This document shows positions 36,912 through 49,291 of a DNA stretch of 64,000 nt, in pieces. The notes beneath the pieces are model-generated. The model was not told where the DNA came from, made no database searches, and saw nothing but the letters and a program-made list of their open reading frames with translations. The position numbers and the translations under genes are program-made. Within the stretch, counting starts at the first letter, position 1; each line of letters opens with the position of its first letter. Source of the stretch: Flavobacteriales bacterium. GTDB taxonomy: Bacteria > Bacteroidota > Bacteroidia > Flavobacteriales > Flavobacteriaceae. The stretch covers positions 1 through 64,000 of the forward strand of contig SGZF01000005.1 in assembly GCA_004213645.1 (NCBI GenBank), written 5' to 3'.

Positions 36912-37822
36912 GATTCTCTATAAAGCGGCAATGTAGAACATCTGAATAGACCTGACATTTTAGATACATTAGAATAATCAACCTTTTCGACTAAAATACC
37001 TTTTTCCTCTAACCAAAGATTTAATCTTTTGAATTTATGGTCAGATACGATAACATTTGGAGAGATAACAAAAACATTAGATGACAACATATAAGATTCC
37101 TGAGCATTTGCAAAAAAAATATTTTTTCTTCCAAAAAGTTTAATTAAAAAATCAACATCTTCACTATTTTTAAACCCATCTGAACATATAATCGCCTTGT
37201 CATGACCTATAGTCTGAAAACAGCAGTCTAAATGAAGTGTATTTTCAAAAATATTTGTATTAGATTTTTTTATATTAATAGGTATGATTTCAATATTTGG
37301 AATCAATTTTTGTAAATAACTTATAGATTCTATATTAGTTCTTGCAGTAATAATGGATGAATAATCAGGGTTAGTGTATGTACCTATAAATAACTTATCA
37401 TTGTGAAGTATTATATCCCCACCTTCTACATGCATAAACTCGGGAAGTTTAACATACCCAACATCAAAACTTTTTACAATTTCTTCAATTGCATTTAGCT
37501 CTTCATGTCGGTTAGGCACAATATTAGACATAAAAAATATGTTAGATATTACAAAGCCAAGATCCCTAGTAAAAATCTGGTTACATTTTTGAATGTTTTT
37601 AGGTCTTATAATTTCAACGTTGTGTTTTAATAATTTCTTATAAAAATCATCGATATTTTTAATTAAACCTTTTTCACTTGGGTAAGAATTATTCTTTACA
37701 TGATATAATGACCTTGGATCATATGTTTCCATTTGGTTAGGGGGGTCACCTATATCTTTGGCTATTCCAAGTAATACGGTTTTTAAAGGCGAATACTCAT
37801 TCGAAATTTTAATGTTAATCAT
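36908..37822 (-). CDS. Arginine deiminase/DDAH-type amidinotransferase-family protein
   Basis: FTRDLGFV, HVEGGDI, TLHLDCCF, C-terminal GLFRCSTLPL. Confidence 0.8.
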   Translation of the reverse strand: MINIKISNEYSPLKTVLLGIAKDIGDPPNQMETYDPRSLYHVKNNSYPSEKGLIKNIDDFYKKLLKHNVEIIRPKNIQKCNQIFTRDLGFVISNIFFMSNIVPNRHEELNAIEEIVKSFDVGYVKLPEFMHVEGGDIILHNDKLFIGTYTNPDYSSIITARTNIESISYLQKLIPNIEIIPINIKKSNTNIFENTLHLDCCFQTIGHDKAIICSDGFKNSEDVDFLIKLFGRKNIFFANAQESYMLSSNVFVISPNVIVSDHKFKRLNLWLEEKGILVEKVDYSNVSKMSGLFRCSTLPLYRES

Positions 37823-40800
37823 TAAAGAACTTGGTTTTTCTTATTTGCAAAATAAGAAATTAAGCCTAAAATAATTATAAAAGCAATCGAATAATATACA
37901 AAACTAGGAGTTATTACTTTGTCTCCGGAAGCATATGAGTGAAGTCCGACTAAATAGAAATTGACACCAAAGTAAGTCATTAGAATGGCGCCAAAAGATA
38001 TAATGCTCATTAAATTAAAAAGCCACTTATTGTTAAGTTTTGGGACAATTCTTAAATGTAGTATTGCAGTGTATATTATAATGCTAATTAGTGCCCATGT
38101 TTCCTTTGGGTCCCAACCCCAGTATCTTCCCCAGCTTTCGTTTGCCCACATTCCTCCTAAAAAATTACCAATCGTCAACATAACCAGACCTATAGTTAAA
38201 GATAATTCATTAACTATTGTTAATTCCTCAAGCTTCCTAGTGAATGACTCCTTGTTCCTTTTGTTAGCAATTGTAGTTAACAAAAGAACTACTATACCTA
38301 AGATCATTCCTATTGCAAATGGACCATAGCTTCCTACTATAACAGCAACATGAATCATTAGCCAATAGCTATCAAGAACTGGCTGAAGATTTGCTATTGA
38401 TGGATCTAACCAATTCATGCTAGCAACATACAAAATTATTGAAGAAACAAAAGTTGCAGATGCTAGTGAAAAATATGATTTTCTTCCAAATATTATTCCA
38501 AAAATCACAGTTGCCCATGCTACAAAAATTATAGATTCATAAGCATCACTCCAAGGCGCATGTCCTGCTATATACCATCTAGCTGCAAGACCTATAGTAT
38601 TTAATAAAAACAAAAAGTATATTATATATTTTACAACCTTAATTAGGAGATTATAAAACTTATTGTCATTAAAAATTTGAAGAATTAGAATTAATAAAAG
38701 AAATAAACCTGACATTAAATACCATCTATATAGTCTGTTAAAAATATCTACTTTATTGTAAATTATTTCTGATGATATTTTTGCATCACTTGGCATTACA
38801 TCTTTACCATATTTTATTTGGTATCCCTTTAAACTCTCAAGTAATTCCTCTGATTGAGAGTAATCATTACTCTCTCTTGATACTCTCAATGTTTGAAAAT
38901 ATAGTTGAAGTACGTTATTTACATACAATGAATCAGCACTCTCAAATCCTTTATCATTTATCTCAGGATATGAAACCCATTTATTATTAAGATCATCTGG
39001 AACAGGGAATATTCTCATTATTTTACCCTCTAGAGCAGAATAAAGTAGATTAACCCTTCTATCTAATTCAATAACATCTTTTTCAATTTGGGTTGGAACA
39101 GATGCTAAATAAGCTTTTTCAAGATTTGTAGCTAACTTATAATTTCCAAGAGAATCAAAAAATGAAACCAATGGAGCTTTTTTAATATTCTTGTCTATCC
39201 CAATAATTTTTTTAATTGTGTCACCTTTTTGACCTGATTTAATATATATGAGTGGAGCATTAAACCATACGCCAGGGTTATCCATAATGGATAATAATAC
39301 TTGGTCAGAGTTAAGTCCCTTATATGAATTAGACCTACTCACCTTTCTAAGTAATTCAGAGGAGAAAGTATTAGCAGGCTTCATCCTTCCTCCGCTGTCT
39401 TGAATAACAATTTCTCCAAATTTACTAGCATGATCCTTACTGTATGTGTTTGAAGTAATAATTGAGTCAATATATTCACTTTTTGGATGTGATATTGTAT
39501 TCTGACTCCACAAACCAGAACTAAAAAAGAAAAAAACTAAAACAGCAGTCTTCTTATTTAATTGTTTTGATAAAAATTTAAATCGAGAGTTTCCAAGAAA
39601 GAAGATACCCATCATACTCAAATAAAGAAGAAAATAGCCAGCGTATGTTATAAATGTACCCCAAAAGTCATTATTAACAGATAATACTGTTCCTTTTTCA
39701 TCAGGGTCAAAAGACGCTTGAAAGAATCTGTAGCCTTTATAATTTAGGATATTATTCATAAAAATATCATAGTCAAAGATTTTATCACCCTGAACAGTTA
39801 CCTTGCTCATAAATGATGAATAACTGTTTTCAGTACCTGGATATTTTTCAGCAATAAAATCATTTAATTTAATGCTAAAAGGGAGTCTAACTTCGTCAGA
39901 TCCATACGATAAGTGAAAATCAAGATCATCAATTGAAATTGTTTTAGGGCTATTAACATAACCTCTACCTCCAAGTAATGCAACCTTTTCAGTTATACCA
40001 TTATAGCTTACATTAATGTAAAGAGCATCCTCAATTTCTCTGTCTGTAACTTCTGCATCAACAATTTCAAACACACCTCTTAAAGCAGGCTCTGGAAATA
40101 CAAACTGAAATCCAGGTATTTGATATAAGGACCTCAATTCTAGAAGCTGTTTGTTATCCTTAGAAAGATTACCATTCTGTTGAGTTGACATTATAGTATA
40201 TTGAGCATCAAATGGTGATTCAATAAAATATTCTCCTGCCTCAGATGTAATATTAATTGCTCCCTTTTGATATGAATTAAATGAAAATAAAATATTTTGA
40301 ATACTAGAAATTTGACCTTCTTTAATGTAGTGCTCACGCCTGTTTCCATCAACTGCTTCTACCAATTTTATATATCTTTCACCAGATGGATCAAGGACTA
40401 AACCTTCAGTAACATTCTCTCTAAAATCGTCATATGAAATTGTAAAATCCTTAGAATAAAAGTTATCCTTAATTGTAAAATTATTCTTAACATGCTTAGA
40501 AAGAAGAAGCTGTGATTTTAAGGTTTTTCTTTCTGGAATGGAGTTATTTTCACCGTCAACGAAAATAGTTAAATATGTTTTTTCTGATAAATAAGTGCTA
40601 GAAACATTATTCTCTCTAATTGGCATGACTCCCTCATCACCTATATATCTTGTAACCAAAGCACCAAGCAAAATAAAAATAAAAGACAAATGAAGTATAA
40701 GAACCGATAGTTTCTCTCTACTAAGAAGGTTATACTTCTTTATGTTTCCCATAAAGTTAACCATTAATAAAAGCATAAGAGCTTCAAACCACCATGCATT

Positions 40801-40938
40801 GTATACCCAAATTCTTGCCGCATCAGTGGAATACCAACTTTCTAAAAATGTTCCGATACCCATAGCAATTGGAAAAAGTATAAGCAACACAAGCATTAGC
40901 TGAGTAGAAAAAAGAAAATTTAGTATTTTAGATCCCAT
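37822..40938 (-). CDS. Fused cytochrome c biogenesis protein (CcsB/ResB plus CcsA/ResC domains)
   Basis: N-terminal ResB-like region; C-terminal WGRYWGWDPKETWALISIIIYTAILHLR motif. Confidence 0.92.
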   Translation of the reverse strand: MGSKILNFLFSTQLMLVLLILFPIAMGIGTFLESWYSTDAARIWVYNAWWFEALMLLLMVNFMGNIKKYNLLSREKLSVLILHLSFIFILLGALVTRYIGDEGVMPIRENNVSSTYLSEKTYLTIFVDGENNSIPERKTLKSQLLLSKHVKNNFTIKDNFYSKDFTISYDDFRENVTEGLVLDPSGERYIKLVEAVDGNRREHYIKEGQISSIQNILFSFNSYQKGAINITSEAGEYFIESPFDAQYTIMSTQQNGNLSKDNKQLLELRSLYQIPGFQFVFPEPALRGVFEIVDAEVTDREIEDALYINVSYNGITEKVALLGGRGYVNSPKTISIDDLDFHLSYGSDEVRLPFSIKLNDFIAEKYPGTENSYSSFMSKVTVQGDKIFDYDIFMNNILNYKGYRFFQASFDPDEKGTVLSVNNDFWGTFITYAGYFLLYLSMMGIFFLGNSRFKFLSKQLNKKTAVLVFFFFSSGLWSQNTISHPKSEYIDSIITSNTYSKDHASKFGEIVIQDSGGRMKPANTFSSELLRKVSRSNSYKGLNSDQVLLSIMDNPGVWFNAPLIYIKSGQKGDTIKKIIGIDKNIKKAPLVSFFDSLGNYKLATNLEKAYLASVPTQIEKDVIELDRRVNLLYSALEGKIMRIFPVPDDLNNKWVSYPEINDKGFESADSLYVNNVLQLYFQTLRVSRESNDYSQSEELLESLKGYQIKYGKDVMPSDAKISSEIIYNKVDIFNRLYRWYLMSGLFLLLILILQIFNDNKFYNLLIKVVKYIIYFLFLLNTIGLAARWYIAGHAPWSDAYESIIFVAWATVIFGIIFGRKSYFSLASATFVSSIILYVASMNWLDPSIANLQPVLDSYWLMIHVAVIVGSYGPFAIGMILGIVVLLLTTIANKRNKESFTRKLEELTIVNELSLTIGLVMLTIGNFLGGMWANESWGRYWGWDPKETWALISIIIYTAILHLRIVPKLNNKWLFNLMSIISFGAILMTYFGVNFYLVGLHSYASGDKVITPSFVYYSIAFIIILGLISYFANKKNQVL

Positions 40939-41033
40939 TTTAAAGCCTTCAAAGATAAATATGAAATTTTAATATTTAATCATTTAGGTAACAATATCAT
41001 GTTAAAGTTTATTTAAATTTGAATCAAAATATT

Positions 41034-41534
41034 ATGGATACTTACAAGACAAGATTAAAAAATATAACAACCTTCATTTTTGATGTAGACGGAGTAATGA
41101 CAAATGGTAAAATTATATACACTCATGATGGAAAGATAGATAGACAATTCAATGCAAAAGATGGCTATGCAATAAAACATGCCATTTCAAAGGGATATAG
41201 AATTGCTATTATATCTGGAGGCATGCAAGAAAATGTAAGGACTAGACTGAATTCATTGGGTGTTGAAGATGTTTTTCTAAAGGCTTTCAATAAAATTGAA
41301 ATATTAGAAAATTTTATGAAGGAAAAAGGTCTAGAAAAAAAGAATATTCTTTATATGGGTGATGATAACCCAGATATCGGACCACTAAAAGTTGTCGGGA
41401 TCTCGTCATGCCCTAAAGATGCATCAGTAGATGTAAAGTCAATATGTGATTATATATCTCATAAAGATGGAGGTTTTGGATGTGTTAGAGATGTAATTGA
41501 ACAAGTAATGAGAATTCATAATAAATGGATTTAG
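41034..41534 (+). CDS. kdsC: 3-deoxy-D-manno-octulosonate 8-phosphate phosphatase (HAD family)
   Basis: FIFDVDGVMTNGKI, KDGYAIKHAISKG, MGDDNPDIGPLKVVG; start taken as MDTYKTRL. Confidence 0.88.
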   Translation: MDTYKTRLKNITTFIFDVDGVMTNGKIIYTHDGKIDRQFNAKDGYAIKHAISKGYRIAIISGGMQENVRTRLNSLGVEDVFLKAFNKIEILENFMKEKGLEKKNILYMGDDNPDIGPLKVVGISSCPKDASVDVKSICDYISHKDGGFGCVRDVIEQVMRIHNKWI

Positions 41535-42121
41535 TTAATAGATCAAAGTATAAAATTATTTTGGGCTCAGGATCAGCAAGAAGGAGTGAGTTATTGAGTA
41601 TGACAGGCATCAATTTTATAGTGAACTCCATTCCAGTAGATGAAAGTTTTCCTGATTCTCTTGAAGGTGCAGAAATTTCAGAATATATAGTTAAAAATAA
41701 ATCTGATGCTTTTAATAACTTAATAAAAGAAAATGAAATTATAATTACTGCTGATACTCTTGTGTGGTTTGAAAACAAATGTTTAGGCAAGCCTAAGGAT
41801 AAAAAAGAAGCAAGATATATGCTTAAATTATTTGCTGGTAAATCTCATGATGTAATTACTTCAGTTGGATTCTTGACTTCCAGTAAGTTTAAATTATTGA
41901 CTGAAAGCACAACTGTTAGATATAAAAATCTTTCTGATAAAGAGATTGAATATTATGTTGAAAAAGAAAATCCAATTGATAAAGCTGGAAGTTACGGCAT
42001 TCAGGATTGGATAGGCATGGTTGGAGTTGAAAACGTAAACGGTAGTTATACAAGTGTTCTTGGTTTACCTGTACCTCAAGTAACTAACGAAATAATTAAC
42101 ATTATTAATGAAAATCTTTAA
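41525..42121 (+). CDS. maf: Maf-like nucleotide pyrophosphatase
   Basis: ILGSGSARRSELLSM, ADTLVWF, DKAGSYGIQ. Confidence 0.94.
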   Translation: MDLVNRSKYKIILGSGSARRSELLSMTGINFIVNSIPVDESFPDSLEGAEISEYIVKNKSDAFNNLIKENEIIITADTLVWFENKCLGKPKDKKEARYMLKLFAGKSHDVITSVGFLTSSKFKLLTESTTVRYKNLSDKEIEYYVEKENPIDKAGSYGIQDWIGMVGVENVNGSYTSVLGLPVPQVTNEIINIINENL

Positions 42122-42572
42122 GTTAAAATATTCACAAAAGCTACCTATTAATTTGAATGAAGCATGGGATTTTTTATCATCGCCACAGAATTTAGAATTA
42201 ATAACTCCAAAGTCTATGGGCTTTAATATAACTGATTGGGATAAAAAAAAGGCCTACCCTGGTCAAATCATTCAGTATACTGTTAAACCTCTGCTTGGAA
42301 TAAAGATTAACTGGGTTACAGAAATTACTCAAGTTAGGTACCAAGAGTTTTTCATTGATGAACAAAGGTTTGGTCCCTACAGTTTCTGGCATCACAAGCA
42401 TTTCATCAAAGAAATTGAAGGTGGTGTGTTAATGGAAGATGTAATTCATTACAAAATACCCTTGGGTCCAATTGGCGTCCTTCTTAATTTCTTTTTTATT
42501 AATTCTAAACTAAAAAGTATTTTCAAATACAGAAAACATGAATTAATAAAAACTTTTGGAGACTATAAATAA
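42108..42572 (+). CDS. SRPBCC-family ligand-binding protein
   Basis: LPINLNEAWDFLSSPQNLELITP…, helix-grip-type sequence. Confidence 0.75.
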   Translation: MKIFKLKYSQKLPINLNEAWDFLSSPQNLELITPKSMGFNITDWDKKKAYPGQIIQYTVKPLLGIKINWVTEITQVRYQEFFIDEQRFGPYSFWHHKHFIKEIEGGVLMEDVIHYKIPLGPIGVLLNFFFINSKLKSIFKYRKHELIKTFGDYK

Positions 42573-43265
42573 ATGAAAAATATACTTCTAATAGGAGGTT
42601 CAACAGGAATTGGCTATGAACTTTCAAAAAAACTCGTTGACAACAATAATGTCTTTGTATCTTCTAGAAATACAGAAATTTTTAATGGTACTGAAATCAA
42701 AACTCATGAACTAAATTTAGATGATGATTTTGAATTAGATTGGTTACCCGATCAAATAGATGGCTTTGTTTACTTACCTGGTACAATAAATCTTAGACCA
42801 TTTAAGGGCATTAAGCCTTCAACTTTTATGGATGACTTTAATATTAATGTAATGGGTTGTGTCAAAATACTTCAAAAGATTTTACCTAGACTTCAATCTG
42901 CAGATTATCCTAGCATTGTTATGTTTAGTACAGTTGCAGTCAAACTAGGGATGCCTTTTCATAGCTCAGTTTCTGCATCTAAGGGAGCAATCGAAGGTTT
43001 GACTAGATCTCTTGCTGCAGAATTTGCTCCAAAAATAAGAGTAAATGCTATCGCCCCATCTATACTTAATACACCAATGGCAGAAAAGTTTCTTAATTCA
43101 GAGTCAAAGATGGATAATGCTAGGAATAGACATCCAATGAAAGAGATTGGATCTGCCCAGGATATATCTGAAATGGTTAATTTTTTATTAAGTGAAAAAA
43201 GTAAATGGATGACTGGTCAAATAATTCCATTCGACGGAGGAATGAGTTCACTTAAGACTAATTAA
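42573..43265 (+). CDS. SDR-family protein with non-canonical active site (VSASK in place of YxxxK)
   Basis: GGSTGIGYELS nucleotide-binding motif; FDGGMSS tail; Tyr replaced by Val (GTT at 42969-42971). Confidence 0.88.
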   Translation: MKNILLIGGSTGIGYELSKKLVDNNNVFVSSRNTEIFNGTEIKTHELNLDDDFELDWLPDQIDGFVYLPGTINLRPFKGIKPSTFMDDFNINVMGCVKILQKILPRLQSADYPSIVMFSTVAVKLGMPFHSSVSASKGAIEGLTRSLAAEFAPKIRVNAIAPSILNTPMAEKFLNSESKMDNARNRHPMKEIGSAQDISEMVNFLLSEKSKWMTGQIIPFDGGMSSLKTN

Positions 43266-43411
43266 TGAGAGGAGTTAAAAAACAAAACCTTCCAACAAAA
43301 ATATGTATCATATGCAGCCTAGAATTTTCATGGAGAAAAAAATGGGAAAAAAATTGGGATGAGGTAAAATACTGTAGCAAATTATGCAGACGCAAAAGAC
43401 AAATAGTATAG
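43265..43411 (+). CDS. DUF2256 small zinc-ribbon-like protein, 48 aa (MRGVKKQNLPTKICIICSLEFSWRKKWEKNWDEVKYCSKLCRRKRQIV)
   Basis: Own translation; absent from ORF track; TAATG coupling with SDR stop; CxxC…CxxxC and WRKKWEKNWDEVKYCS signature. Confidence 0.9.
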   Translation: MRGVKKQNLPTKICIICSLEFSWRKKWEKNWDEVKYCSKLCRRKRQIV

Positions 43412-44676
43412 TTTGGTTTAGAAATAACATGAGGGTTGAAGATAATAGTTCCTTAACAAATGCAATCAGTAACTCAGATAGTGTTATCGGTTATATTAAT
43501 ATTGATCCTAAAAACTTCATTTTCACAAATTATGGATTTAAAAAAACGGAAAAGTATAGAGCAAAATTTTTACTAGAGACAATATCTGACTTAAAAAGAC
43601 AACTTGACTCATTAAATATATCATTAATTATAACTCATGATGACTTTGAAAAATCATTAAAGAAAATAATTAATCAGTATGAAATAACAAACATCTATTT
43701 ACAAACAGAATGGACAAGAGATGAATTAACAGAAGAGTCTTTTATACCAGAAAAAATTAATTTAATTAAAGATTTTGATCAGTTTCTTTACTCACCCACT
43801 GATGTAAAAGGTTTGTACGATAATATACCCATAGGATTCTCTAACTTCAGAAAAAAATGTGAGAAATATTTATCCGTCAATAACATTTTATCAATACCCA
43901 AATCACTAAATTCTAATAATAAAATTTTAGAAGACTACCCAATTCCATCATTATCTGATCTTGGATTTAAAGACTTCGAAATACACAAAGACTCAGTTTT
44001 TAGGTTTAGAGGTGGAGAAACAAGTGCTAAGGATAGGATCAAAAACTATTTCTACGAAACTAGAAACATATCAAAATATAAATTAACTCGTAATGGACTA
44101 ATTGGTGAAAATTACAGTTCGAAATTTTCACCCTGGTTATCAAATGGTTCAGTATCGGTTAAATATATATACAAATTATTAAAAGAATACGAGACAGAAG
44201 TTGAAAAGAATGACTCTACATATTGGTTATACTTTGAGCTAATCTGGAGAGATTTTTTTAAGTATGTCTCAATGCAACACAAAGACAAGTTTTTTAGCAA
44301 AGATGGTATTTATGGAAAAGATAAAGAATGGTCCAATGATCAAGATGTATTATCAAATTGGATAAATGGTAAAACAGATGAGCCCTTTGTAAACGCAAAT
44401 ATGATAGAACTTTCACAGACAGGTTTTATGTCAAATAGAGGAAGACAGAATGTTGCAAATTATTTAACAAAAGAATTAAAGATTGATTGGAGGATTGGTG
44501 CTGAATATTTTGAATCTATGCTAATAGATTATGATGTTCATAGTAATTATGGAAATTGGCTATACAATGCTGGCATAGGGAACGATTCAATGCCATTCAG
44601 GAAGTTTAACCCAAAACTACAATCTGAAAGATATGATCCAGATAAATCTTATGAAAAAATTTGGTTGAATGATTAA
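43384..44676 (+). CDS. Cryptochrome/photolyase, DASH-type
   Basis: SIVWFRNNMRVEDN; ELSQTGFMSNRGRQNVANYL…DWRIGAEYFESMLIDYDVHSNYGNW. Confidence 0.9.
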   Translation: MQTQKTNSIVWFRNNMRVEDNSSLTNAISNSDSVIGYINIDPKNFIFTNYGFKKTEKYRAKFLLETISDLKRQLDSLNISLIITHDDFEKSLKKIINQYEITNIYLQTEWTRDELTEESFIPEKINLIKDFDQFLYSPTDVKGLYDNIPIGFSNFRKKCEKYLSVNNILSIPKSLNSNNKILEDYPIPSLSDLGFKDFEIHKDSVFRFRGGETSAKDRIKNYFYETRNISKYKLTRNGLIGENYSSKFSPWLSNGSVSVKYIYKLLKEYETEVEKNDSTYWLYFELIWRDFFKYVSMQHKDKFFSKDGIYGKDKEWSNDQDVLSNWINGKTDEPFVNANMIELSQTGFMSNRGRQNVANYLTKELKIDWRIGAEYFESMLIDYDVHSNYGNWLYNAGIGNDSMPFRKFNPKLQSERYDPDKSYEKIWLND

Positions 44677-46159
44677 TAAATGTTGCATAGCTTTTCCAAA
44701 TCAGCTTTTCAAGGAAAGTAGTTTAATTAAAAAAAATAATCATCTCTTTTTAGTAGAGGAATATTTATTTTTTAAACAATATAAATTTCACAAACAAAAA
44801 ATCTCATTCCATAGAGCAACTATGAAATTCTATGAGGATTATTTGGAAAATAAAGGCCTAAGAGTTTCCTACATTAATTCACATGATGATCAATCTAACA
44901 TTTTAGTACTTTTAGATACAATTAAATCTCAAGGTTTCAATCTTATTGAAATGTACGACCCTGTTGATTATCTTTTGAATAAAAGGATTAAAAGAAAATG
45001 TGAGGAACATAAAATAGACTTATTAATTCATGAATCTCCACATTTTTTAAATACAAACGAGGATCTTAAAGATTTTTTTAAGGAATCTAAAAAAAAGTTT
45101 TTTCAAACTACTTTTTATAAAAACGAGAGAAAAAAAAGAAATATCCTTATAGATCCAAATGGAAGACCAGAAGGCGGGGAGTGGACATATGATATGCTAA
45201 ATAGAAAGAAGTATCCAAAAGGAGAAATTCCTCCTAAAATTGATATACCTCAAAAAAATGATTATATCATTGATTCTAAATTATATACAGAAAAAAATTT
45301 TAAAGATAACTATGGTGAAATGGGTATATTTAATTACCCGATTTCTTTTGATGAATCTGAAAAATGGTTTGATGATTTTTTAGAAAATAGATTCAAGATG
45401 TTTGGTGACTATGAAGATGCTATAGTTAAAGATGAGATTACATTAAATCATAGTGTATTAAGTCCATTGATGAATGTTGGACTTCTTAGTCCAAAACATA
45501 TTATATCTAAATCAATAGATTTTTCTAAAAATAATAATATTCCAATTAACTCAACTGAAGGTTTTATAAGACAAATAACAGGTTGGAGAGAATTTATTAG
45601 AGGTATTTATGTGGTTAAAGGAAGCTATGAAAGAACACTAAATTATTGGGGATTCAAAAGAAAAATTCCAAGATCATTCTACACTGGTGAAACAGGAATA
45701 GAACCGATTGATAATTCAATTCAAAAAGTTCTTAAAACTGGTTATTTACATCATATTGAAAGATTAATGATACTTGGAAACTTTATGTTATTATGTGAAT
45801 TTGATCCAGATGAAGTTTACAAGTGGTTCATGGAATTATTTATTGACTCATATGACTGGGTTATGGTACCCAATATATATGGTATGAGTCAATTTGCTGA
45901 TGGTGGACTGATGTCCACAAAACCTTATATAAGCAGTAGTAATTATGTATATAAAATGAGTGATTATAAAAAAGGTGAATGGGATATTGTTTGGGACGGT
46001 CTATTTTGGAGATTTATGGATAGACAAAGAGATTTTTTTATCAAAAATCCAAGACTAAGAATGCTTGTTAGTACATTTGATAAAATGAGCCCTGAAAAAA
46101 GAGAAAAGCATATCCTTAATGCAGAAAAATATTTATGTAAAATTGACAATGAAAATTAA
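44669..46159 (+). CDS. Cryptochrome/photolyase-related protein (DPRP, PF04244-type)
   Basis: HRATMKFYEDYL; RQITGWREFIRGIY; MSQFADGGLMSTKPYISSSNYVYKMSDY. Confidence 0.88.
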   Translation: MINKCCIAFPNQLFKESSLIKKNNHLFLVEEYLFFKQYKFHKQKISFHRATMKFYEDYLENKGLRVSYINSHDDQSNILVLLDTIKSQGFNLIEMYDPVDYLLNKRIKRKCEEHKIDLLIHESPHFLNTNEDLKDFFKESKKKFFQTTFYKNERKKRNILIDPNGRPEGGEWTYDMLNRKKYPKGEIPPKIDIPQKNDYIIDSKLYTEKNFKDNYGEMGIFNYPISFDESEKWFDDFLENRFKMFGDYEDAIVKDEITLNHSVLSPLMNVGLLSPKHIISKSIDFSKNNNIPINSTEGFIRQITGWREFIRGIYVVKGSYERTLNYWGFKRKIPRSFYTGETGIEPIDNSIQKVLKTGYLHHIERLMILGNFMLLCEFDPDEVYKWFMELFIDSYDWVMVPNIYGMSQFADGGLMSTKPYISSSNYVYKMSDYKKGEWDIVWDGLFWRFMDRQRDFFIKNPRLRMLVSTFDKMSPEKREKHILNAEKYLCKIDNEN

Positions 46160-46424
46160 AAATACACAAGAAATAGATAGAATAATTGAAATGGCATGGG
46201 AGGACAGGACTCCATTTGAAGCCATTTTTCTTCAGTTTGACATAAATGAAAAGGAATTAAAAAGTATTATGAGGAATAATCTTAAAGAAAGTAGTTTTAA
46301 ATTATGGAGAAAAAGAGTCAGCGGTAGAAAAACAAAACACACAAAACTTAGAGAAACGAATGTTGATAGATTTAAATGTAAAATGCAGAAAAATATATCA
46401 AATAATAAAATATCAAAGAGATAA
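46149..46424 (+). CDS. TIGR03643/DUF2805 family small protein
   Basis: IDRIIEMAWEDRTPFEAIFLQFDINEKELKSIMR…SFKLWRKRVSGRKTKH; start reset to MKIKNTQE. Confidence 0.82.
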   Translation: MKIKNTQEIDRIIEMAWEDRTPFEAIFLQFDINEKELKSIMRNNLKESSFKLWRKRVSGRKTKHTKLRETNVDRFKCKMQKNISNNKISKR

Positions 46425-48751: not shown

Positions 48752-49291
48752 ATGTTAGATAAAATAAATAAAAGAGTTGTGTTAGCTGGGGGACCTAGTA
48801 CAGGAAAAACTAGTATTATAAATAAATTAAAAAGTAAAAACTTTTGTTGCTTTGATGAAGCTGCTAGAGAAATACTAGACAAATTTAAACTTAAAGGTTT
48901 GGAATTTAAAAATGATCCATATGAGATAAGTAATGAAATTTTTATAAAAAGAGATATTGATTACAATAAAGCTAATTTACTTAAATGCAAAAAAAATGTT
49001 GTTTTCTATGACAGGGGAATTCATGAAATAACGGCATATCTAAATTCTATAAATATGTCATCAGATTATTGGAATAACTTGCCAAAAAAATATATATATG
49101 ATTTAATTTTTATTTTTAATCCCTGGGAAGAAATATATACAAAAGACGAAAATAGAATTGAAAATTTCAGTGATGCAAAAAAAATTAGCCCTTTTATTCA
49201 TAGAGTTTATGAAGAATCTGGAATTAATTTAATCGAAGTACCTAACATAGGTATAAATGAAAGAATCAATTTTATATTAAAAAATACATAA
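48752..49291 (+). CDS. P-loop ATPase (AAA_28/NadR-like)
   Basis: GGPSTGKTSIINKL Walker A; FDEAAREIL; FYDRGIHEI. Confidence 0.82.
   Translation: MLDKINKRVVLAGGPSTGKTSIINKLKSKNFCCFDEAAREILDKFKLKGLEFKNDPYEISNEIFIKRDIDYNKANLLKCKKNVVFYDRGIHEITAYLNSINMSSDYWNNLPKKYIYDLIFIFNPWEEIYTKDENRIENFSDAKKISPFIHRVYEESGINLIEVPNIGINERINFILKNT

Follow-up and report, generated by a model that had tools for sequence, protein, structure and literature searches.

The DNA considered here is a window of 64,000 nucleotides, positions 1 to 64,000 of contig SGZF01000005.1 (assembly GCA_004213645.1) from a Flavobacteriales bacterium. The subject is a block of six + strand genes at 42108–46424, in which this tiny-genomed, marine organism carries two predicted light-driven DNA-repair enzymes, a cry-DASH cryptochrome/photolyase and a DPRP protein, together with two very small proteins, DUF2256 and DUF2805. 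All of the open reading frames that an earlier note on this DNA had listed for the block are present where it placed them, and its family assignments hold. The features, beginning with the two housekeeping genes that lead into the block, are as follows.

40939–41033, + strand: divergent ccs/kdsC intergenic region, the sole candidate promoter region of the run
41034–41534, + strand: kdsC (HAD phosphatase; TIGR01670 122.6 bits, cut-off 107), housekeeping, first gene of the run and outside the photo module
41525–42121, + strand: maf nucleotide pyrophosphatase (TIGR00172/PF02545), housekeeping
42108–42572, + strand: SRPBCC/START-fold small-molecule binding protein, assigned from its predicted structure
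42573–43265, + strand: short-chain dehydrogenase/reductase (SDR; PF13561 127 bits)
43265–43411, + strand: DUF2256, 48 amino acids (aa), four-cysteine zinc-finger-like protein (PF10013 72 bits, E 4e-20)
43384–44676, + strand: cry-DASH cryptochrome/photolyase, 430 aa (TIGR02765 449.7 bits, cut-off 317)
44669–46159, + strand: DPRP, prokaryotic (6-4) photolyase homologue of the iron-sulphur (FeS)-less subgroup, 496 aa (PF04244 172 bits, cut-off 22, E 2e-50)
46119–46424, + strand: DUF2805/TIGR03643, small, basic and probably helix-turn-helix (HTH)-like (PF10985 117 bits, cut-off 22.5; TIGR03643 114 bits, cut-off 66.6)

From kdsC onward, the spacings between successive genes are -10, -14, 0, -1, -28, -8 and -41 bp, with no gap greater than 0 bp through to DUF2805; the abutting and overlapping arrangement that the earlier note saw as continuing from kdsC–maf is thus there, with spacings from 0 to -41 bp. 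The start of DUF2805 is more likely to be the ATG at 46149, as in relatives, in which case its overlap with DPRP would be 11 bp. The convergent murA gene lies downstream, 2 bp beyond the block. A Bacteroidetes -7-like element, TAAATTTG, can be read from the sequence at 41014, inside the ccs/kdsC spacer, and a sequence scan gave no -33/-7 promoter match within the block. Close packing is common in the window, which is 95% coding: 17 of the 38 same-strand gene pairs overlap, and a spacing of ≤5 bp is seen in 24 of the 38 (7/7 in the module and 17/31 elsewhere, p = 0.03, in statistics that rest on a crude gene caller). The proposition that overlaps prove co-function was rejected as weak, overlaps occurring throughout the genome; because so many pairs overlap anyway, those of the block are weak evidence of shared function. 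The same figures favour the view that streamlining has simply juxtaposed unrelated short genes, whose co-occurrence would reflect a shared aerobic, sun-exposed lifestyle, and to which we return with the linkage data.

Among close relatives the block is not a matter of chance, since all 19 same-genus loci that were recovered carry it, with ccs/resB on one side and murA on the other; 18 of these have no internal loss (two are ended by contig ends) and one carries a deletion, which is described below. Every gene is under purifying selection, with a median ratio of non-synonymous to synonymous substitution rates (dN/dS) of 0.05–0.13; the values are 0.07–0.13 for the accessory genes, 0.10–0.13 for the two flavoprotein genes and 0.09 for murA. 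Co-loss was considered for five same-genus genomes in which DUF2805 is missing and was rejected: murA is also absent from them (and maf from four), and since none of the region is assembled in these genomes, they say nothing about co-loss.

The first of the two flavoproteins exceeds the curated TIGR02765 cut-off and has cry-DASH proteins as its nearest solved structures (6kii, E 3e-106, and 1np7), and so belongs to that family; the Vibrio CRY-DASH repairs cyclobutane pyrimidine dimers (CPDs) in single-stranded DNA (PMC5241685). The second, DPRP, aligns at full length with PhrB (PDB 5kcm/4dja, E 5e-75, residues 21–493) and, in an alignment of all DPRPs, keeps the catalytic His-His pair H365/H366 and the Mg2+-binding D179/D254, the Mg2+ aspartates of this photolyase group being named in PMC12082625. 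The retained catalytic residues and the full-length homology rule out the ‘pseudo-enzyme’ that the earlier note had supposed. None of the four cysteines that bind the [4Fe-4S] cluster (C350, C438, C441 and C454 of PhrB) is found in the window DPRP or in 18 same-genus copies, and for this reason it is not filed as an FeS-BCP. The number of cluster cysteines among the DPRPs examined is four or none, never between, and a single branch of the tree (support 100/100) divides 27 FeS-less from 44 FeS rows, with the window DPRP in the FeS-less clade, which spans eleven Bacteroidota families. That the cluster was lost as a recent iron-sparing change of a streamlined marine lineage was ruled out, there being one old FeS-less clade that includes large-genome families. 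As cysteine-free prokaryotic (6-4) photolyases have already been described (subgroup M, Prochlorococcus PromaPL; PMC9178010; also PMC12082625), the window DPRP is a member of a known variant. Judged from its residues, it is an intact homologue of the FeS-less (6-4) photolyases, and its family membership suggests that it would repair (6-4) photoproducts.

DUF2256 is identified by its match to the PF10013 profile and by four invariant cysteines (C14, C17, C37 and C41), which in 17 sequences are accompanied by an invariant W23-R24-K25, W27 and W31. It is listed in the TRASH clan (PMC4047054) and ranks with the most frequent proteins of ≤50 aa that still lack an explanation (PMC11796252). A role as replacement for the lost FeS cluster was ruled out: DUF2256 accompanies 38 of 42 FeS and 19 of 22 FeS-less DPRPs, and because the accessory set occurs with both kinds it is no substitute for the cluster. 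DUF2805 has helices at residues 8–19, 25–32, 36–46 and 49–59 and a conserved basic tail; from a reading of the sequence and of the helix pattern, its core is probably HTH-like. A second, weaker DUF2805 paralogue (69–84 bits) occurs in one Flavobacteriaceae genus (G115, G126, G142, G199, G211, G231, G079, G083 and G227), the three genomes without the photolyase-linked DUF2805, DUF2256, DPRP and cry-DASH included. In six genomes of Flavobacteriaceae, DUF2805 is repeatedly adjoined by a 143-aa protein with no Pfam or NCBIfam match (L185:7912-8343, cluster c69); proteins of 74 aa and 58 aa (the latter of the Lacal_2735 family) also recur close to this protein and DUF2805.

The remaining two genes encode proteins that may act on small molecules. 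The SRPBCC protein has no Pfam or NCBIfam match, and its placement comes from an AlphaFold2 model (predicted local distance difference test score, pLDDT, 86), which Foldseek matched to START/Bet v1 folds with 299 PDB matches at E ≤ 0.001; the best is 7wa9 (E 4e-7), the SRPBCC part of the epimerase 3oh8 was also matched, and the model shows the helix-grip fold of the SRPBCC/START superfamily. The alignment of this protein (A3) comprises 17 sequences. For the SDR, none of the SDR equivalogs reaches its cut-off.

The same 197 good Bacteroidota genomes were searched for DUF2805, DUF2256, DPRP and cry-DASH. DUF2256 is present in 61 and DPRP in 64, with both in 57, so that they occur singly in only 4 and 7 genomes, respectively (p 1e-36). 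DUF2805 is present in 52, together with DPRP in 47 (singles 5 and 17) and together with DUF2256 in 47 (singles 5 and 14). Because Fisher tests ignore kinship, a Cochran–Mantel–Haenszel test stratified by family was run within the class, giving p = 7e-7 for DUF2256 with DPRP, 2e-5 for DUF2805 with DPRP and 4e-5 for DUF2805 with DUF2256. The four genomes that have DUF2256 without DPRP still carry cry-DASH or another photolyase-family gene. The set varies even inside a single genus (g33): six genomes carry DPRP, DUF2256, DUF2805 and cry-DASH, and from three others all of these are missing except for the weaker DUF2805 paralogue. Co-occurrence of the accessory genes with cryptochrome/photolyase genes beyond close relatives had been set beforehand as the test by which the earlier note’s proposal of a shared photodamage role might fall; it extends far beyond them, to plasmids of other phyla, and supports that role. 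A search of the literature found nothing tying DUF2256, DUF2805 or TIGR03643 to photolyases.

Linkage was followed in about 150 loci gathered from relatives, in which genes were called and clustered. A photolyase-family gene lies within 3.5 kb of DUF2256 in 39 of 51 loci, on the same strand in all 39 and immediately adjacent in 32, and in several families the two genes overlap. The partner is variable: DPRP and cry-DASH are seen, as are other classes and a short photolyase-like protein that has just the flavin adenine dinucleotide (FAD) domain. The linkage of DUF2805 is looser, with a photolyase within 3.5 kb in 21 of 55 loci; the gene often lies near an SDR (16) or a flavin reductase (11). 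Recurrent neighbours of the relatives’ loci are SDR-DUF2867, GTP cyclohydrolase I, carotenoid genes, and an ABC1/UbiB kinase accompanied by a TetR regulator; this gene content is similar to that of light-inducible clusters known from Pseudomonas (PMC9758184). The short photolyase-like proteins (about 371 aa; L140:8911-10026, cluster 23) adjoin DUF2256/DUF2805 in six Bacteroidota families. Outside Bacteroidota, the evidence comes from plasmid records and named control genomes: DPRP, DUF2256 and TIGR03643 are side by side on an Acinetobacter plasmid, a photolyase gene adjoins DUF2256 on a Rhizobium plasmid, and the two overlap on a Salinivibrio plasmid. On the Acinetobacter baumannii plasmid NZ_CP053219 (L267:5474-7404), a photolyase-family gene, DUF2256 and TIGR03643 stand together beside nudC and a lipocalin gene. 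No DUF2256 or DUF2805 match was obtained in 50,697 phage records. The passive juxtaposition of unrelated genes draws some further support from the varying gene order among families and from SRPBCC, which is seldom linked outside close relatives. It is nevertheless largely contradicted by these data, and we regard it as very unlikely: the linkage of DUF2256 with photolyases recurs in many large-genome families and on proteobacterial plasmids, the genes co-vary even inside families and inside a single genus, and 32 immediate same-strand adjacencies are not explained by lifestyle.

We lean towards the view that the block is a photoreactivation operon, concerned with repair and not with light sensing, in which small proteins that help the photolyases are combined with a pair of small-molecule enzymes. 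In such an operon, cry-DASH and the FeS-less (6-4) photolyase would be co-expressed with the four accessory genes by way of the kdsC promoter region and translational coupling. Both flavoproteins would draw on blue/UV-A light for the splitting of UV lesions, the most likely targets being CPDs in single-stranded or looped DNA for cry-DASH and (6-4) photoproducts for DPRP. DUF2256 (a treble-clef-like zinc finger of very small size, on which a Trp/Lys/Arg face is invariant) and the basic, HTH-like DUF2805 would most likely be nucleic-acid-binding auxiliaries, which may bring the photolyases to DNA or lesions, or hold them there. The SDR and SRPBCC proteins would most likely act on some small molecule that belongs to this response to light damage, be it a pterin, a flavin or a photo-oxidised lipid.

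Light sensing, the other half of the earlier note’s proposal, would make cry-DASH and DPRP photoreceptors and have the small proteins relay the signal. Certain bacterial relatives (RsCryB) do affect gene expression (PMC9178010), and the small proteins look nucleic-acid-binding. However, DPRP keeps its Mg2+ aspartates and its catalytic His-His pair, a C-terminal output domain is lacking, and the block is without a separate regulated promoter region; in V. cholerae, a cry1/cry2/phr triple mutant was constructed to probe for a receptor role, and the published model instead invokes ChrR/sigmaE and MerR (PMC5241685). We consider light sensing highly improbable, and unsupported because the block holds no regulator or photosensory output domain and is appended to the housekeeping kdsC–maf.

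The comparative data favour the proposal that DUF2256 and DUF2805 serve the flavoproteins. Several observations weigh against it. Of the DUF2805 loci, 34 of 55 have no photolyase within 3.5 kb (0/11 have one in family f36), and there are counter-examples in which DUF2256 or TIGR03643 has no photolyase close by, such as the solitary DUF2256 genes on plasmids of Pantoea, Erwinia, Azospirillum and Spirosoma. None of the PDB matches to the DUF2805 model is significant (best Foldseek E 2.9), the weak ones being mostly to HTH proteins. Finally, in the same-genus locus with a deletion (genome G024, isolate SI034_bin14; contig JABGTW010000051.1, L165:8757-9268, the same contig as L189), one deletion of about 2.6 kb has removed cry and DPRP, leaving the first 16 cry codons, and yet SRPBCC, SDR, DUF2256 and DUF2805 are intact, open and conserved; no other PF03441 gene was found anywhere in this genome (completeness 82%). 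Three explanations may be offered: that the loss is recent, that the accessories do more than serve both enzymes, or that the junction in this single metagenome-assembled genome is an error of assembly. On the second of these options, the accessories may also act beyond photolyases.

The main rival to a photoreactivation operon with helper proteins is a regulon in place of a complex. DUF2805, and perhaps DUF2256, would then be transcription or anti-sigma-like regulators of a set of genes for light or photo-oxidative stress (photolyases, flavin reductase, SDRs, folE and carotenoid genes); their co-occurrence would come from controlling this response or being part of it, and they would not touch the photolyases. 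The helix pattern of DUF2805 and its weak structural matches, the frequency with which it is unlinked from photolyases within the same genomes, and the survival of the accessories in G024 all point this way, as do known light-inducible clusters that combine PhrB, SDR, FolE and CryB (PMC9758184). On the other hand, the window genes hang on a housekeeping run without a promoter region of their own, DUF2256 is too small for a sensing domain and its gene overlaps those of photolyases in several families, and the HTH similarity of DUF2805 is statistically not significant. A regulon seems to us rather unlikely.

Photolyases are textbook one-protein repair enzymes. DUF2256 and DUF2805 come and go with them across many bacteria and are good candidates for overlooked photorepair helpers. 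A broader, tentative possibility is that the two form a dedicated and widely conserved auxiliary system of bacterial photoreactivation (a zinc finger plus an HTH protein), which might serve several photolyase classes, including the FeS and FeS-less (6-4) enzymes, for instance by guiding them to lesions within compact chromosomal DNA. If it is true that two small conserved proteins are constant photolyase partners across phyla, cellular photoreactivation has missing components; the associations described here give a direct test of DUF2256 function.

Two other genes of the window may be recorded. The constant left neighbour, divergent from kdsC, encodes a 1038-aa fused cytochrome c biogenesis protein (37822–40938; ResB/Ccs-like, by reading), and at 48752–49291 there is an AAA_28/NadR kinase-like protein of 179 aa, matched by the NadR model in its kinase half only.

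With the cry-DASH proteins 6kii, 1np7 and Vibrio Cry1/Cry2, the window protein shares a TIGR02765 score over the cut-off and its best PDB matches. It is short (430 aa against about 490), a form also found here in other Flavobacteriaceae. DPRP resembles the FeS-BCP PhrB of Agrobacterium (4dja, 5kcm) in its full-length homology, H365/H366, D179/D254 and W390, and differs in the missing cluster cysteines, a shortened cluster loop, and the replacement of W342 by Tyr and Y391 by Phe. With subgroup M/PromaPL it shares the PF04244 match, homology over its length to PhrB, the lack of cluster cysteines and the His-His pair, whereas the window DPRP has cry-DASH and DUF2256/DUF2805 as companions in an operon-like block; its probable placement in one subgroup with PromaPL is made from the cysteines that both lack and from the FeS-less clade. 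DUF2256 has the clan listing and the CxxC...CxxxC arrangement of the TRASH-clan zinc fingers (DUF329/YacG, zf-FCS; PMC4047054), from which its invariant W-R-K-K-W...W...V-x-Y-C-S face is distinct. The light-inducible clusters of Pseudomonas comprise phrB-SDR-FAD oxidoreductase-ufaM, cryB and folM-folE-folX (PMC9758184). Such LitR/CarH-type clusters have in common with our loci a photolyase and an SDR; flavin reductase and folE are present besides in the loci of relatives. No MerR/B12 or other light regulator adjoins the window block, which is flanked solely by ccs/resB–kdsC–maf and murA; in contrast to those clusters, it is attached to kdsC–maf and has DUF2256 and DUF2805 as its constant partners.

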